From Spirogloea muscicola (Eukaryota > Streptophyta > Zygnematophyceae > Spirogloeales > Spirogloeaceae), in assembly GCA_009602725.1 (NCBI GenBank), contig WELB01000180.1:209188-229733 (forward strand): a stretch of 20,546 nucleotides of DNA, in the 5' to 3' direction. Every line of letters begins with the position of its first letter. Position 1 is the stretch's first letter. The notes below the pieces were generated by a model that made no database searches, was not told where the DNA came from, and worked only from the letters and a program-made list of their open reading frames with translations. This document shows positions 10,101 through 19,979 of this stretch, in pieces. Both the position numbers and the translations under genes were made by a program.

Positions 10101-13100
10101 GCCATTGCAGGGCGTGATGGAGCGTGTCGTGGCGATGCCGCCGCCGACAGTGGCGGAGCTCGTCGCGCTCGCGCTCGAGATGCTCGAGTGCCCCCAGGAC
10201 CAGGCGCGCAAGAATGCCGCGCTCTTCTTCTCGGCAGCCTTCGCCTTCCGCGCCATCGTCGACGAGTTCGAGGCCCAGGACGGCCTGCGACGGCTGCTCA
10301 ACCTGCTGCGTGCAGCAGCAATCCTGCGCTCTGGTGGGCATCCCGGCGGGGGCGGTGGCGATGAGAGGCCTGCTGCAGCGCTGGCAGTGGTGGAGGGTGG
10401 CGGCGGCGCCCAAGGAGGGGCCATCAACGACCCCAACCACGGCTGGACAGCGACGCTGCCGGCGCTCGAGTACAGGCCAGCGGTTCTCCAAGGAGAGGGG
10501 AGGGGGGGAGGAGGGGGGGAGGCGCTGCTGACGTCGTCTGGCAAGCAGGTCGCATACAACGCCTGCCTGGCGCTGCGCCAATACTTCCGCGTCTCCTTGC
10601 TGCAGCTTGTGGACTCGCTGCGCCCTGGCAAGGCCTCGCTGCGAGGCAGCCGCGCCGGCGGCGGCGGCGGTGGCTGTGGCCGGGTGGGCGGCGGCTCCCG
10701 TGGCGAGTATGGCAAGCCTCTCGACGTGACGCACGCTGTGGAAGCGGCACTGGCGTCACTGACACGCGACCGGCGGCTGGGACCGGCACTCGTGCGTGCA
10801 CGCTGGCTGCCACTCGAGCGGCTGCTCGACCTCGGCGGCCTCCTTATCCTGCTGGAGCTCACGCAGGCGGCGCCTGGCGAGCGATACCTCCATGAGACCG
10901 CGGGCTATGCACTCGGCGTGCTGCAGCTTGCCACCCTCATGCCCTATGCCCGCCGCGCCCTGCTTAACGCCATGCTCTCCAATGGACGCCCTGCGGTAGC
11001 CGTTGTACTGGATGCTGCTGCCGGCGCCGCCCACGTTGACGCTGAGGTGTGTTGGCAATCGGCACCCCTCTTTGCTCTATATGATGGAATGCTAGTGGGT
11101 CAGGCCGGCTGATCAGGAAGCGTGACAGCCAGCTTCTCACTACAATAAAATTATCAAGTCTTTAAAATTTGCACGTGTTGAGGGTTTTACTCACAACTCA
11201 CGGTTGAGATCAGATAAGTCACAAGTCTTGCCACAAAGTTTGGGAAGGCGTATCATCTGTGTCAGGAGTCATTGCTGAGGGTTTAGCCCTTTGCACCTCT
11301 CCATCAACAGCCTATGGACGTTCTTCTGTGATTTTAATGGAAGCACGCTGTGCACGGGGCCCACGAGCAAGCGCAGGTGATCCAGGCGGCGCTGCTGGTG
11401 CTGGCCAACCTCGCGTGCCCGCCGCCCTCCCTCTGCAGCCGCCCACACGGCAGTGCCGCTGAGCGGGAAAGCACCGACGTGGCGCCGTTGCTGCCGCCGG
11501 GCACGTCTGCGACCACTGCCACAGCTGCCGTCGGTGCGTTCATTTGTTTGCAACTGCAATCAGCTGCGCTGGCGCACTGACAGCCAGCTTTGCGTTTGCA
11601 TCACAGAAATTGTAAGCAACTAATGCTGCCTCCTGGAGGCATTGTTCACTTGCAGGTGGTGCAGGTGCTGCTGCAGCTGCAGGATCCGGCGGGGCTGGAG
11701 GAGGCGCAGCAGCCGCAGGCGGTGGTGGCAGCGGCAGCAGCGCAGCAGCAGCAGCTATTGTTGGGGACCGCCGCATCTCGCTGGGCCCTGGCGGCGGCGG
11801 GCCCGGCCTGGCGGCGTACATGGAGCAGGGTTACCGCATGGCGCGGGACGCCGTGCGCGCTGGCAATGGCATCAAGATCTTGCTACACCTCCTGCACCCG
11901 CGTGCTGCATTGCCGCCTCAGTCCGCTGACTGCGTGCGCGCACTCGCCTGCCGCGTGCTCCTTGGCCTCGCCCGCGACGAGGCAATTGCCCACATCCTCA
12001 CTAAGCTCCAGGTGAGCTGTGGTTGTCTGCATGATTGCTCTTTGAACATGCTTATACTGTAGCTGACAGAATGCTTGTAGTGACAACCCATATCCAGCAA
12101 CTCAGCATCAGTTCCTCTACTTAAACAATCAAGCCTTTGCCAAACCGTAGGAGCTCAGGTGGATCAGGTACTCCTCATTTCTCATTGCCTTACTGCCGTG
12201 TCGCAGGTTGGCCGGCTGCTGTCGGAGCTCCTGCGGGAGGCTGGTGGCAGGGCGGGCGCCCAGGTCAGGGCGGGCACGCACCTGGGCGCGAGTGGTGCGG
12301 AGCATGCCAAGTGGCTTATTGAGTTTCAGCATGTTGCTCTGGAGCTCATCGCGGTGAGCATCCGAGGCAAGCAGTCTTGTCTTCTGCAAGTTGCACGTTG
12401 CATGCGGCAATTGTGTGATAGAGAAGCGCCTGAGAGTGGCTCCTCATTGACTGTCATTGGTCGGCCCCAGATCACTACGAATGCCGGGCGAGCAAGCACG
12501 GCGGCAGCAAGCGAGGCTGCCGCGCCAACATTCCGTAGGATCGAGCGGGCAGCCATTGCAGCAGCCACGCCCATCAGCTACTCCTCCCAGTAAGCTGCGT
12601 CTTTGTCATGCGTGTTGAGACTTGTCATCATTTTCAGAGCTGTCTAAGTGCTGGCCATGTCACAGCCTGTAAGCTTAAGTCCTGATCTGACTCACGCAAG
12701 GATGTTGATATTACAAGTTCATCCTATATTGCTTCAGCTAGTAGAGCAAGAAATTGTACAAGGACTTGTTGTTTGCGTGATGTGACTGCCAATCTTTTGA
12801 CAATGTGTGATCTGTGTTCCGCCCCCTCCTCTGTGGCGCCCGGTGTTGCAGTGAGCTTCTACGATTGATCCATGAGCACCTATTGAAGGCGGGGCTGCCA
12901 TCTGCGGCATCCACACTCCTGCATGAGGCCGGCATTGCGCCCTTGGTCGCGGCGACCGAGCTGCCGTCCTCCTTCGGCAGCCAGCAGGCAGCCCATGGAG
13001 CTGTCCCGGCTTCCCCTTCTGCTATGCCCGCAGCAATGCAATTGGCGGCTGCCAGTCCGGCTGCGCGGGGCAAGACCGGCGCAGCTCTGCAGCTACCAGA

Positions 13101-15388
13101 GTGGCCAAGGGGCCGGACGATACGGGGCTTTGCTGTCGATGGCAGCGACGCAGCCGGCCCAAGTCAGCTGGGGGCGACGCCGGACGAGCGCTCCCGCAAG
13201 AAGCCGCTGCCCTTCTCCCGGTCCCTGTCTGCGAGGATTGGGCCTCGCACTCCACCGGCTGGGGCTCTCCGACTGCCTCCGCCACCGCCGGACAGCCCCC
13301 ACGGCAAGGACGCCACGCCGGTAGAGACAAGCAAGCGCAAGTTGACAGATCACGATGGTGCGGCGCTGGATGTCGAGACGCCTCCAAACAAGAGGCTGAG
13401 CCTGGGCCAGACGCCAGCGCCGGCGGTGCGGGGGCAGCAGACGCCGCCAGCAGCGCGCGCAGGCAAGGCCGGGAGCCTCCCTGTGCCGCCTTCGTCCCAG
13501 CAGCTGGAGCCGGCGCTGCCGTACCCCTACTACAACACGCACTTCTTTGCCTCGCCGGCGCTCGGCGCCGGCGCTGGCACGGTGGCCGAGGACGGCCGGG
13601 AGGACGCGATGCTGCTCAAGCCACCGGCGGCGGCGCACGCGAGTCTGGACAGTATCATTCTGCAGTACCTGAAGCAGCAGCACCGGCAGTGCCCATCGCC
13701 GGTGACGGCGCTGCCACCGCTCTCGCTCCTCCACCCGCATGAGTGCCCGCTGCCGCGCCGGGCTCTGGACGCACCACTCAACACCTCTTCGCGGCTCGCC
13801 GCACGGCAGCGCAACCCGCCCCACGGCGGGCCGTGGGGCAAGCGGCACGACCGCCACTTTGTGTACGCGCGGTTCCGGCCATGGCGGACGTGCCGCGACG
13901 ACTCAGCGCTGCTGACGTGCGCGGCATTTGTGGGCGACGCGAGCCGGTTGGCAGCGGGGTCCCACAACGGCGAGCTGTGGGTGTTCCGCACCGGTGGTGG
14001 CGAGGTGGTGGAGCAGCGCAGCGCCCATGGGAGCCCCATCATGTCGCTCCAGAGCGCGCCGTCAGCCGACGGCTCTGCGCAGCTCCTCCTCTCGTCCACA
14101 GTCAACGCCGTGAAGCTGTGGGACGCGGCCGACCTAGCAGGCCAGCCGCTGCTCGAGCTGGAGGACGTGAAGGCCGGGAAGCTAAGTCCGAGCGCAATGC
14201 GTGTTGCGACTGTCATGGCCGAAGCGCACGAGCGCGAGGTCCTGATATACGACGTGCAGACTGGCCGGCTGCAGCAGAGCCTCAAAGACCGGGAGGGGCC
14301 GTCGCCCAACCCCGCTGCTACGGGGGGGCGTGCCAGCCACGGACTATCAAGTGTGCACTTTGGGCAGGCCGAGTCGCTCCTCCTCTGGAATGGCATCCTG
14401 TGGGACCACCGGGTGCCCAGGGCCCTCCACCGCTTCGACCAGTTCACTGATTATGGTGGCGGCGGCTTCCATCCCAGCGGCAATGAGGTCGGTGGCAATT
14501 GCTACTCCCTCTCTCTGCTACTTTCTACCCTCTTTTGCTTCATCATCTTCGTTTTTGGCAGCAACACAGCATATTTTCTTCGTCTGCATTTGTCCCAACA
14601 ATGGCAGTGCCACTGAGGAAAGGCTCGTCTGTCAGGTTATTCTCAACTCTGAGGTGTGGGACCTCCGAGCGTTCAAGCTCCTGCGTAGTGTCCCATCGCT
14701 GGACCAGACAACGATCAGCTTCAACGCCACAGGGGACGTCATCTATGCCACATTGAGGAGGACCCACGACGACATCCTGTCGGCGCTTGTGTCTCGACGG
14801 AAGAAGCACCCCCTCTACTCCTCCTTCCGGACGCTGGACGCCGTGGACTACTCGGACATCGCAGTCACGTCCGTGGATCGTTGCGTGCTGGACCTTGCGG
14901 TAGAGCCCACAGACTCCTACATCGCGGTTGTAGCCATGGATGAGCAGGAAGAGATGGACTCATTCGCCCGCTTGTTTGAGGTGGGGAGGCGGCGGCCCAT
15001 GGACGATGATTCTGATCCCGACGATGGAGGCGAGACCGAGGATGACGAAGACGAGGATGATGACGACGAGGAGGAGGATGACGATGATGATGGCTTGGAA
15101 GGGGGGCCCGTCGAGGTCGAGCTGGGCGTGGAAGGGGATGGCGTGGCAGAGGGGGAGAATGAGGACGGCGCACAGGGCATACTGATGGGCAACAGCGACG
15201 AGGACAGTGAGCTGCTGGAGGAGAACGAGAGCCGTCGCATGGAGCTGGACCTGATGGGCATGCTGTCGGAGGAAGACAACGACAGCGAGGATGACAGCCA
15301 GGACTTGGACGACGACGAGTCGTCGGGGTACCCATCTAGCGAGGACTACGAGCCCGGGCTCGATCGGCTCCTCAATGGGTTCAGATAG
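7151..15388 (+). CDS. DCAF1: DDB1- and CUL4-associated factor 1 (DCAF1), 13 exons
   Basis: DCAF1 is the substrate receptor that docks on DDB1 in CUL4 RING ubiquitin ligases, mainly in the nucleus; animals call it VprBP. Exons are 7151-7222, 7330-7408, 7588-7704, 7881-8053, 8188-9028, 9151-9933, 10111-11046, 11377-11533, 11656-12011, 12207-12353, 12471-12589, 12852-14487 and 14636-15388. All introns are GT-AG and phases agree once the N at 7193 is dropped, giving about 2,055 residues; Arabidopsis DCAF1 is about 1,880. Landmarks are HTIGRLANTLR, EMLQTYATGLLAVALGG-type start, VLGPVLHERGVEVCLALL, LVCALAAHRKFAALLADRGG, CPQDQARKNAALFFSAAF, GYALGVLQLATLMP (armadillo-like half), LRRIERAAIAAATPI-type FRRIERAAIAAATPISY, LisH motif ELLRLIHEHLLKAGLP (about 1261-1290), HFVYARFRPWRTCRDD, WD40 repeats with two DDB1-binding WDxR boxes (WDHR about 1777, WDLR about 1813), and a highly acidic tail. 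Extra low-complexity stretches lie in exons 5 and 6. Identification is very firm. Confidence 0.95.
7193..7193. other. Ambiguous base in exon 1 of DCAF1
   Basis: A single N in a GCG/GGC run. Read as a real base, the ATG frame leaves exon 1 as ...ARGGE and misses the family sequence. Dropped, the same ATG reads into LLEREEA and splices to RYQEAAGG, which aligns with the plant DCAF1 LLE...SRYLEE segment. Confidence 0.8.
11047..11376 (+). other. DCAF1 intron 7, the longest in the gene
   Basis: A 330-base GT-AG intron (GTGTGT...GCGCAG) between VDAE and VIQAALLVLANLACPPP, both matching the plant protein across the join. It is partly AT-rich around 11140-11180. I see no gene or RNA inside it. Confidence 0.8.
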
Positions 15389-16383: not shown

Positions 16384-19300
16384 CTAGTCAACATAACCTC
16401 GACTAAGCATGGCTGCCTCAAAACGCTTGGAGGATGCAAGACGCATTTCCGAGGACATCTCATCCTCTGGTGAAGGATAGTAGTCGCCCCATACTTCCAC
16501 ATCCCGTAGCTCCGTCATCCGTTTCAGCATGAAGAGAACGTGCTCACTGACTGTTCCATGCACAAGGAGCTTCCGAACTTTTGCACAGGATGACAGGATG
16601 CCAGCGGATACCATCGAAAGTGGTCTGACAAGCAAACAACACCAAGCTATTAGTAAGAAGCCAATACTTGGCTATGAGCGGCCACTTCCACCTCAGCCAA
16701 CTTCTGGTGGATATTCACAAGCTGCAGAAGCCCATGCCAGTGCTCACCTGCGATTGAGGTCCTTGTCAGTCGGAGGCCAATACTCCAAGCCTGCAGCACA
16801 TTAACGCAGCAGCCATTAGAGAAGCAATCAAGGAGCGCTGCTGCATGGATGACATTGAGTGGCAACCATTCTATGTCAAAAGTGACAAGAGATGCTCATG
16901 TGCTCACTGGTCATGGGCAGGTGTTGGATGCCATTCAGATGGAAGCGCTCCCACAAGCTGACATCCGTGAAGCCTGGAGGACAACTAGCAGAAAAACCAG
17001 TGACCTTGCTGAGGTTGATTCTGCAGCAGGCGAGCGATGGAAAGCAAGCCAAGCAGGCCAGGCCAAAGGCGCGAGCGCCTGGACCAGCCAGATCTGGACA
17101 GGCGCCCTCCACCTCCACCTTTACCTGCGCAGGAGGCGGGCAAGACTGCAGTGAGCTTGTGCTTGCTGCATTGGAGATGCTTTGCAACTTCAACTCTTGG
17201 CATAGTAGCATGATGCTGTGGGCTCAAAGTGCAGCAGATTCACCTCTGCAAGGGCTGGACAAATATCCAAGCCTGCTGTAATCAAGGGGGTCAGTAGAGC
17301 TCCCAGAGGTGCCCACACAACGAGTGCTTTCAGCGAAGGCCAGAAAGGCCTGGCAGGCAGCTGATCATCGTCCACGAAAGGCATTCGATCTGGGCCTGGC
17401 TGAGACGCATCTCCACTACGCAGCCCACCCCTCCTGCCATCTGCAGGTGGTCTCTCGGAAGGTGCACTACTTCGCCAGTCGCAGTCCAGAGACAGGGCTC
17501 TCAGACGCTGCCTCATTGGTGTCAAGGCAGCTAAGAGGTGCTTGGTGGGAATGGTGCGGCACTGGGTGATGGAGACTTCAACCAATGCCGGTAGCGACTG
17601 TGCCAGACACCGTAAGCCTGCCCTCGTGAGACTTGGACAGTTGCAAAGACTGCAGCACAAGCCAGTGCATCCAGTGATCAGTAGAACGCCTTCCGTCACT
17701 CGGCACAAGCTCTGCAACAACTCAAAAGGAGTGCAACTGCCCTGAATAATAGATGGAGAAGCTCAAATAGACAGGCAATACCAGCAATATCAGCAGCACT
17801 TACTCAGTTCTTAGCTGTACTATAAATAGAGAGGCCCATAGTCCATCTCTACAGCAGAGCATGAATGATTTTGGCTGAAACTCTAAGTTGAAGCCTACAG
17901 AGCTTTGCACCTGAGCTTGCTAAGTTGTCGGAAGCTGTCTGCAATCTCATGAGCGCCCCTGTCCGACACGCCTGGTCTGTGCTTCAATGTCAGCTCCCTC
18001 AAGGACAGCCGAAACGACGACGAAGACATTGTCTTGATAAGGTCACCACCAGCTTCAAAGCAACCCAGATGAAGGGATGTTAAGCCTGAACAGTTCATTG
18101 ACAGAGCTTCCATGCAGGCAGCGCCATCCTGGACCCTCTGGGACAGCATAATCTTCAAGTCCTGAAGCTCTGGAAGTTCTCGTGAAAAGGCCTTCATGTG
18201 AAGACAACACACAGCCAGCAGATCAGTCACCTTCCCCGACCGTTTCTCAATGAATCTAGGCACAGCCATAGCAAGTTGAAGCCTGACATATTTTGAGGAA
18301 TTGTATCTTACTATCTCTGCAGAGAGCTAAAGACGTGTCATGATGGAAAAGCACCACATCACTCCACTGGATTAGGTGCTGGTGAGGGCACCCTTTGGCT
18401 GAGAGTGTTGACTCCTGAATTTCAATGCTTGATCTAGGATCCAGGAGTTTGCCTTTGTCAGTGAGGCATAGCCGCCTGAGGCCTGTGCAAGATCTTGCTA
18501 TTGCAAGTAGGCCAGCATCACTCAATGCATCCTGATATCGAGGGTCCGATTCACATACACTGCACACAATGCCATGAAGCAGCAATCAGCGAACCAAGTT
18601 CTAGCTTGGAGTAATTCATGATAGTTGAGGTGCCACTCACAATATAGATCTACCAGAGAGGAGGCATGTTCATACCTTGCCATACAAGCAATACACTACA
18701 TGGCCTGTGCATGGCAGGGCACTAGCTGTACCGATCGCCAGCGAGGGTGCGAAGACTATGCATTATCTTACCATGAGAGCTCCTCAAGCTTGGGGCAGTG
18801 TCTTGCTATTGTAACCAGCTGGCTATTGGTGAAATTGTCTTCTGCTGACAGCTTCAGCAGGTTGAGCTTAAGGAGGTTGGATGCAGTTTGTGGACATGCC
18901 TGCATTGCTGTAGGAACATCATTTGTCCAGCAATGAAACTCAGATAAATCCAGGGCAGTCAGCTGTGTACACATCTGTAGCAGCGGGATAAGCTCTACTC
19001 CTGCCTCCAAATTGACCAAGTCCTTGTGGGCCTTGTTATGCCACCTCACTAATGAGGTGGCATAGTTGCAACTCTTTGAAAAGTTCAGCATGCATCTTTC
19101 AAGTACAGTGACGACTCTTCAGGAGAGAATGTCAATACCGGAGGTACTACTGCGTTTTGTGTATGCCTGTGTGAACATTTGTTACATTCCACAAGTGATG
19201 CATCAAGTATGTCTCAGCAAGTGAGCTATTGGGGCTCAGAAAGGCTTTGGGTACCCTCTGTGACTCACTTTGAGGCAAGGCCAGATCTTGGCTACAGTCC

Positions 19301-19979
19301 TTACGTCGTCAGCCTCTCGTACATAGAACTTCAAGCTCTTCACCCGTGGAAATGAGTCTTGTAATAGTGCTGGAAGGTAGGGCCTGTCCTGAATCTGCAG
19401 CGGATAACCCCAGGGGCTGCATGAAGGAAGACAATTGATGATACAAAGGCCTCTCAGGAGCTTCATAGGAGACAGATCACATGTCAGAAGCATGCAACAA
19501 GAAGCGGAAGGATCACTGCTGTCGGCTCCGACGAGTATGGAGCCACAAGCCAAAATTGGCAAAGGGAAACCATGAGCATGCTGATACCATGCATGATTCA
19601 AGTACCACGCGTCAGTCTAAGAGAAGGTAACAAACAAGGCCGTCAACGCACATAGCAAAACGAGTTGGACAGTTTGCCTTGACCTGCATCGAGAGAGGTC
19701 CAGGTACTCCACTTGGGTGAATGTCTGCGGCACCAGCTGGAGTTCGCCATTGTTACCCTTGAGAGCCAGCTTATCACGTGTCTGCCTCTCCCATTCATTC
19801 CACGCCCTGCACGCCAATGACATGCAGTTCCTGGTGCGCACGTCGTCGACGAGCGACATTATCTGCAGTATGATCTCCGAGGAGAGGTCCATGATCGAGG
19901 TGGACTTCGGCATTTGCTGCGCTGGCCCATCTTTGGTGTGCCCCTCGGCCTGACGTTGCCGCTTGCATGTCCTGTCCAT
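16384..19979 (-). CDS. MAX2: F-box/LRR protein MAX2 (D3) homologue, nine exons
   Basis: MAX2/D3 is the F-box subunit of an SCF ubiquitin ligase that, in land plants, pairs with KAI2 or D14 hydrolases and targets SMXL repressors in karrikin and strigolactone signalling; it acts in the nucleus. Exons in transcript order are 19979-19684, 19416-19269, 19073-18772, 18559-18392, 18282-17911, 17649-17244, 17124-16908, 16790-16748 and 16624-16384. Introns are GT-AG and the exon lengths total 731 codons exactly; Arabidopsis MAX2 has 693 residues. Matches to plant MAX2 run end to end: F-box MDLSSEIILQIMSLV and RTRNCMSLACRAW (about 30-70), LVPQTFTQVEYLDLS, SPWGYPLQ, LVRWHNKA, LDLSEFHCWTNDVP, DPRYQDALSD, PLITAGLDICPAL, FGLACLACFP, LWERFHLNGI, LEYWPPTDKDLNRRPLS and DYYPSPEDEMSSEMR. 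The leucine-rich repeats lie between. ATGs at 19913 and 19892 could also be the start; a frame open to 20021 begins with TTG. The N-terminal extension is basic (KRQRQ). Confidence 0.94.

Follow-up and report, generated by a model that had tools for sequence, protein, structure and literature searches.

The DNA described here is a stretch of 20,546 nucleotides from the streptophyte alga Spirogloea muscicola (contig WELB01000180.1, positions 209,188 to 229,733), referred to as the window throughout. On the minus strand, at 19979-16384, it carries the exons of a MAX2/D3-like protein that can be followed from the F-box to the last residue. Land plants use MAX2 in both the strigolactone and the karrikin response. 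The locus is read here as one of three homeologous zygnematophyte copies of MAX2/D3, the product of which would be a subunit of an SCF (SKP1-cullin-F-box) ubiquitin ligase and would belong to a module of KAI2 and SCF(MAX2) with some substrate that is not SMXL. To this reading as a whole a probability of about 0.78 is given. The position of the gene, its start with the F-box and its intact C terminus had already been named in an earlier reading of the DNA (the original prediction), and all of these were confirmed, as was the minus strand.

Exon 1 (19684-19979; like all MAX2 exons, on the minus strand) contains the start codon and the F-box and ends in a phase 2 donor. The F-box is recognized by the Pfam profile F-box_5 (PF18511; cut-off 25.5 bits), with 27.9 bits for the window model and 26.0 bits for the copy on contig C161. 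Exon 2 (19269-19416) is bordered by GT-AG sites that are conserved in all three copies. From the alignment of the three copies, the following exons were placed: exon 3 (18772-19073, as readable in the window copy from a cryptic acceptor), exon 4 (18392-18559, with a 7-bp deletion at its 3' end), exon 5 (17911-18191, assigned by orthology and frame-shifted relative to exon 4 in the window copy), exon 7 (16908-17124), exon 8 (16748-16790, 43 nt and the same in the three copies) and exon 9 (16384-16624), which encodes the DYYP..EMR segment, the C-terminal helix, the final Asp and the stop codon. Exon 6 (17244-17649) received a corrected start; the earlier start at 17736 was ruled out by the acceptor at 17649, which is common to all three copies. 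The first-draft start of exon 3 and the exon 4/5 junction also proved wrong or uncertain against the other two copies. The nine-exon window model encodes 759 residues, or 730 once exon 6 is corrected.

When compared to the chains of the PDB with phmmer, the window model matched first the F-box protein of 9kkx (chain C, 2.4e-122) and rice D3 (2.9e-106), followed by TIR1 at 2e-6. The protein of the C161 copy performs better than the window model: it matches 9kkx_C in a single stretch, residues 27-699 against 69-762, with an E-value of 2.1e-135, and TIR1 at about 1e-6. Among the F-box/leucine-rich-repeat (LRR) proteins of solved structure, both are thus closest to MAX2 and collinear with it up to the C terminus. 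Judged from the predicted protein, the match to MAX2/D3 is far beyond chance.

The phylogeny that had been suggested along with the original prediction was built as a small tree from 11 rows and 692 columns, with TIR1, COI1 and AtMAX2 among the rows. MAX2, together with a divergent MAX2-like paralogue from the same genome that is treated below, stands apart from TIR1/COI1 with a support of 100/100. Alternatively, the gene could encode a generic relative of TIR1, COI1 and EBF, with which it has the F-box and LRR architecture in common; with E-values more than 100 orders of magnitude apart and the clean split from TIR1 and COI1 in this EBF-free tree, the chance of such an assignment is negligible. 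The claim of a MAX2 orthologue was borne out by the match over the full length, by the tree and by the KAI2 genes that accompany it in the genome.

Across the assembly (153.1 Mb in 471 contigs), MAX2 was located on three contigs, namely C180 (that of the window), C161 and C28. The copies on C161 and C28 consist of nine exons of identical lengths (305, 148, 290, 175, 281, 409, 217, 43 and 241 nt), every intron is of the GT-AG type, and the encoded protein of 702 residues ends in Asp, which is the last residue in all three copies. Convergent with MAX2 in the window lies a segment of DCAF1 (VPRBP; 14624-15058, plus strand, PDB match 2.4e-28). DCAF1 is a substrate receptor of cullin-RING ligase 4 (CRL4), the other big class of ubiquitin ligases. 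The same tail-to-tail arrangement recurs on all three contigs, and the three DCAF1 matches are the only ones found genome-wide. Because DCAF1 adjoins MAX2 each time, the MAX2 copies are homeologous segments rather than dispersed duplicates. The shared neighbor also bears on the origin of the contig: three diverged copies in one assembly, each beside the same gene, and an identity of only 35-39% to the three land-plant MAX2 rows leave next to no room for a contamination with land-plant DNA. A LisH match within window positions 12811-14613 was assigned to the DCAF1/VPRBP orthologue as well. Elsewhere in the window, a diphthamide synthesis protein is encoded on the plus strand (789-1868, PF01866, 6.1e-77), and an Rfam scan of the window returned nothing.

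All four gene families that were followed (MAX2, KAI2, DCAF1 and the MAX2-like paralogue) are present threefold, and a recent whole-genome triplication has been described for S. muscicola (PMC9065682). In land plants, MAX2 is reported as a single-copy gene (PMC5490202). Here it is not, as the genome holds three homeologs and three copies of the paralogue; a single copy is a usual and not a defining feature of MAX2. The synonymous divergence (dS) between the MAX2 genes is uneven: the window and C161 copies form a closer pair (dS 0.08) than either does with C28 (0.14-0.16). Judging by these values, it looks as if the triplication had occurred in two steps or had come from a hybrid. In the trios of KAI2 and of the paralogue, such unevenness is less marked.

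The window copy differs from its homeologs at two splice junctions. Relative to the C161 and C28 copies, 5 bp are missing between 19058 and 19057, with which the acceptor AG of exon 3 is gone, and exon 4 has lost 7 bp from its 3' end (between 18393 and 18392), so that exon 5 with its orthologous start at 18191 is no longer in frame. Neither deletion is found in the other two copies. The frame of the window copy is open only if exon 3 begins at an upstream cryptic acceptor (19073) and exon 5 at an acceptor before the orthologous one, e.g. 18282, and this cryptic-site version adds residues that are absent from the other rows of the MAX2 alignment. Within the scanned range, 23 GT-AG pairs would leave the frame open for intron 4 by itself, so that an open frame proves little at this point. 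The original prediction of nine exons joining in frame is therefore doubtful for the window copy, with 5 and 7 bp lost at splice junctions. The same applies to the description as full-length: the match spans the whole protein, while the two deletions call an undamaged window product into question. The window copy may be spliced poorly or aberrantly, whereas the other two copies are intact.

On a rival reading, the window copy would be a decaying homeolog, i.e. an early pseudogene, with MAX2 being made by the other two copies only. The lost acceptor, the frame-breaking deletion and the extra residues of the in-frame reconstruction all speak for it, and its chance falls just a little short of even. 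Its remaining exons, however, are free of stop codons. Moreover, of the codon changes that occur in one copy only, the window copy has 13 non-synonymous and 19 synonymous ones, a proportion much like that of the C161 copy (9:12) and the C28 copy (30:44) and no sign of a long relaxation; an assembly error at the two deletion points is also possible. As the coding exons are without relaxation, the lesions would be recent, bypassed or errors of the assembly. Among the three copies, MAX2 is under purifying selection. Over 698 aligned codons (gapped columns excluded), the ratio of non-synonymous to synonymous substitution rates (dN/dS) by NG86 is 0.295 for C180-C161, 0.224 for C180-C28 and 0.225 for C161-C28, and 0.33-0.37 by YN00.

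The search of the same genome for partner genes, also suggested earlier, was successful for KAI2. An AtKAI2 query yielded 9 exon matches at three loci (contigs C4, C7 and C11), all of them KAI2-like; D14 was given no separate search. Each locus holds an intact gene of three exons encoding 267 residues, with an identity to AtKAI2 of 59-69% per exon. The catalytic triad of AtKAI2 (Ser95, Asp217 and His246) is conserved in the C11 protein, the best PDB matches of which are the moss KAI2-like proteins C and E (about 1e-140), ahead of KAI2 and D14 and far ahead of the bacterial RsbQ (5.7e-58). Between the copies, the KAI2 dN/dS is 0.048-0.078. In a model of the rice KAI2-D3 interface, four polar KAI2 residues have been named, D30, D51, E174 and N181 (PMC11350264). 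With positions mapped by alignment (the AtKAI2 numbering is one lower), three of these four are kept in the algal KAI2, and the position of N181 is occupied by Ser. Two further residues were modelled in contact with the RGKT motif of SMXL, namely AtKAI2 D165 with the arginine and AtMAX2 D610 with the lysine (PMC13233607). The algal KAI2 has Asp at the former position and all three algal MAX2 copies have Asp at the latter.

The substrate known from land plants, SMXL, was not detected in the genome with an AtSMAX1 query and the Clp_N, AAA_2 and NBD_SMAX1 profiles, a miss that does not prove absence. The AtSMAX1 query gave four matches, all of them D2 segments of the Clp type, the best on C193 (29% identity, E 3.9e-10). 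C193 is also the top match of the AAA_2 profile with 236 bits, for which AtSMAX1 itself reaches only 42 bits. The 20 Clp_N matches correspond to 11 loci, and all 11 lie within about 4 kb of a Clp-type AAA_2 match; since each adjoins such a match, no Clp_N locus is left over for an SMXL, with the caveat that AtSMAX1 itself falls just under the Clp_N cut-off. The NBD_SMAX1 profile had no match in the genome, which counts for little because it matched 9 of 14 prokaryote controls and yet missed the genome's own Clp genes. An SMXL might also have hidden among the AAA_2 loci without Clp_N, of which one locus was read per scoring group (C58 and C50 score as C90; C131 and C340 as C30). By their motifs, we take C90 to be ClpX-like, C30 to be of the CDC48/ATAD2 type, C92 to be ClpC-like and C193 to be ClpB-like. 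Taken together, SMXL is likely absent from the genome as far as such searches can tell. For charophytes, a possible KAI2-MAX2 module without an apparent SMXL has been put forward (PMC6728956), with which this null result agrees. As a side observation, the ClpB-like gene (C193:166500-173500) is apparently single-copy, while the genes that were followed are triplicated. It could be a plastid-type ClpB without its homeologs, or a contamination.

With three intact KAI2 genes and no detectable SMXL, the ancestral substrate is likely to have been something other than SMXL. In the most likely mechanism, MAX2 would serve as the substrate-receptor subunit of the SCF ligase, with its F-box turned toward SKP1 and its LRR solenoid and C-terminal helix toward a KAI2-type hydrolase. 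The ancestral module would consist of KAI2 and SCF(MAX2), and would act on a substrate other than SMXL. D610 and the helix ending in the final Asp have been retained in a genome in which SMXL was not detected; this face of MAX2 would therefore predate SMXL or serve another substrate. The binding of SKP1 and of KAI2, as well as the nature of the substrate, are inferred from sequence for the algal MAX2, and so would be any role of MAX2 before the hormone pathways.

Some observations weigh against this reading. The identity between algal and land-plant MAX2 given above is low beside that of KAI2. Compared with its two homeologs, the window copy is damaged at two of eight junctions. Furthermore, the segments that face the receptor are not specially conserved. 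In rice D3, residues 593-608 and 684-709 are protected upon the binding of D14 (PMC10858650). The segments that were tested (rice 593-608 and 684-717) contain 33 residues that are invariant in land plants, and 19 of these are present in each of the C161 and C28 copies, against 144 and 145 of 227, respectively, elsewhere in the protein, i.e. no enrichment (Fisher p 0.57). Finally, MAX2 is less constrained between its copies (dN/dS 0.22-0.37) than KAI2 (0.05-0.08) or the paralogue (0.04-0.05), so that MAX2 may be the less important partner; this counts against a tight pairing of KAI2 and MAX2. The algal MAX2 might, accordingly, act without KAI2 in another process, with KAI2 signaling via another partner. 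This would fit the far stronger constraint on KAI2 and the Ser at one of its four polar interface positions (N181, PMC11350264). It is nevertheless considered somewhat unlikely, as the other three interface residues are kept in KAI2, and MAX2 retains D610 as well as the C-terminal helix with its final Asp.

The MAX2 search also matched three F-box exons with 40% identity on C217, C68 and C56, which belong to a divergent MAX2-like paralogue with three intact copies (C217:55500-63500, C68:340100-348000 and C56:99400-107400). All three copies have ten exons of the same lengths with GT-AG at every junction, encoding 650 residues from the first modelled codon; the start codon was not found and lies in or beside a stretch of N. 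The best PDB matches are MAX2 (6.5e-48) and rice D3 (1.2e-35), with TIR1 at 1e-11, and the identity is 29.5-29.7% to the algal MAX2 and about 28% to land-plant MAX2. Queried with the paralogue at E-values up to 0.01, the genome gave 37 matches; these fall on the three copies of the paralogue itself, on those of MAX2 and, weakly, on two further F-box loci (C132 and C317). The dN/dS of the paralogue is 0.038-0.054 at a dS of 0.13-0.15, the latter within the range of the other trios. Introns 1 and 2 of MAX2 and the paralogue have the same phases (2 and 0), at positions that differ by 5-6 alignment columns, and none of the other introns agree in place and phase together; shared introns between the two genes are thus suggestive only.

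In the paralogue, both tested D3 segments are gapped. It keeps 8 of the 33 invariant residues there versus 100 of 227 elsewhere (Fisher p 0.037), has Gly at the position of D610, and runs 29 residues beyond the canonical end of MAX2, without the final Asp. Since the receptor-docking face is lacking, the paralogue probably recruits something else. One could propose that KAI2 works chiefly with the paralogue instead of with MAX2 as its F-box protein, as the paralogue is constrained as strongly as KAI2 itself; the losses in both receptor-facing segments, the Gly and the additional residues make this quite improbable.

In the tree, land-plant MAX2 is supported with 85/91 and the paralogue sits on a branch of length 2.04. 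The branching order of algal MAX2, paralogue and land-plant MAX2 is not recoverable: algal MAX2 groups with the paralogue at 57/27, and the approximately unbiased test gives p-AU 0.20 for land-plant MAX2 with the paralogue and p-AU 0.46 for the paralogue outside. Since all three placements are allowed and long branches meet at this point, the paralogue may or may not have split off before land plants. One might tentatively suppose that the zygnematophytes, as sisters of land plants, have retained two ligases of the MAX2 family that were already separate when land plants arose. MAX2 would then work with KAI2 on a non-SMXL substrate, and the slowly evolving paralogue, without the face for KAI2/D14, would serve another receptor or bind its substrate directly and would have been lost in land plants. 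We regard this extended scenario as unlikely.

The original prediction of an algal origin held and could be sharpened to a zygnematophyte, in view of the triplicated genes, the GRAS genes (92 matches counted by exon, frequently in groups of three contigs) and an AtPYR1 query without a match in the genome, an empty result that alone shows nothing. It agrees with the reported absence of PYL from S. muscicola and not from Mesotaenium (Cheng et al. 2019, cited in PMC7289718), and the same source has Penium lacking PYL too. An rbcL query had no match in the assembly, so that the plastid genome is probably outside it.

A MAX2-like protein of the streptophyte alga Coleochaete nitellarum was described in 2017 (PMC5490202). 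MAX2 in streptophyte algae was thus already known; added here is a probable zygnematophyte MAX2 with its gene structure, copy number and partner genes. In the open-licence papers that were searched, neither a zygnematophyte MAX2 nor the paralogue was found; the published annotation of S. muscicola may well list MAX2. The same survey, for which the conserved C-terminal region of AtMAX2 served as the BLASTN query, reports that neither further nor divergent copies of MAX2 were identified in any lineage outside the angiosperms (PMC5490202). For the S. muscicola genome the paralogue contradicts this statement, and the C-terminal region is where it differs most. With KAI2 and MAX2 present and SMXL not detectable, the question of which protein SCF(MAX2) degraded prior to the SMXL repressors and to strigolactone signaling becomes directly testable.

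The closest known systems are rice D3 (5hyw/8if6) and the F-box protein of 9kkx, the other chains of which are ShHTL7 and AtSMAX1. The algal MAX2 has in common with them the F-box, the LRR solenoid, the DYYP..EMR segment, the C-terminal helix up to the Asp, and D610. It differs in its 35-39% identity, its nine exons and its three copies, as well as in the loop before the last LRR block, which is of another length and composition. TIR1 and COI1 are likewise F-box/LRR substrate receptors of hormone pathways, but they fall outside the MAX2 clade, and in partial alignments they are 20-27% identical to the rows of the MAX2 family. The Coleochaete nitellarum protein, likened by description only, is also from a streptophyte alga, although of the Coleochaetophyceae and not the Zygnematophyceae. 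For KAI2, the likely partner of MAX2, the genes of which lie elsewhere in the genome and not at the MAX2 locus, the closest solved relatives (judged on the C11 protein) are the moss PpKAI2-like C and E (6atx and 6azc).

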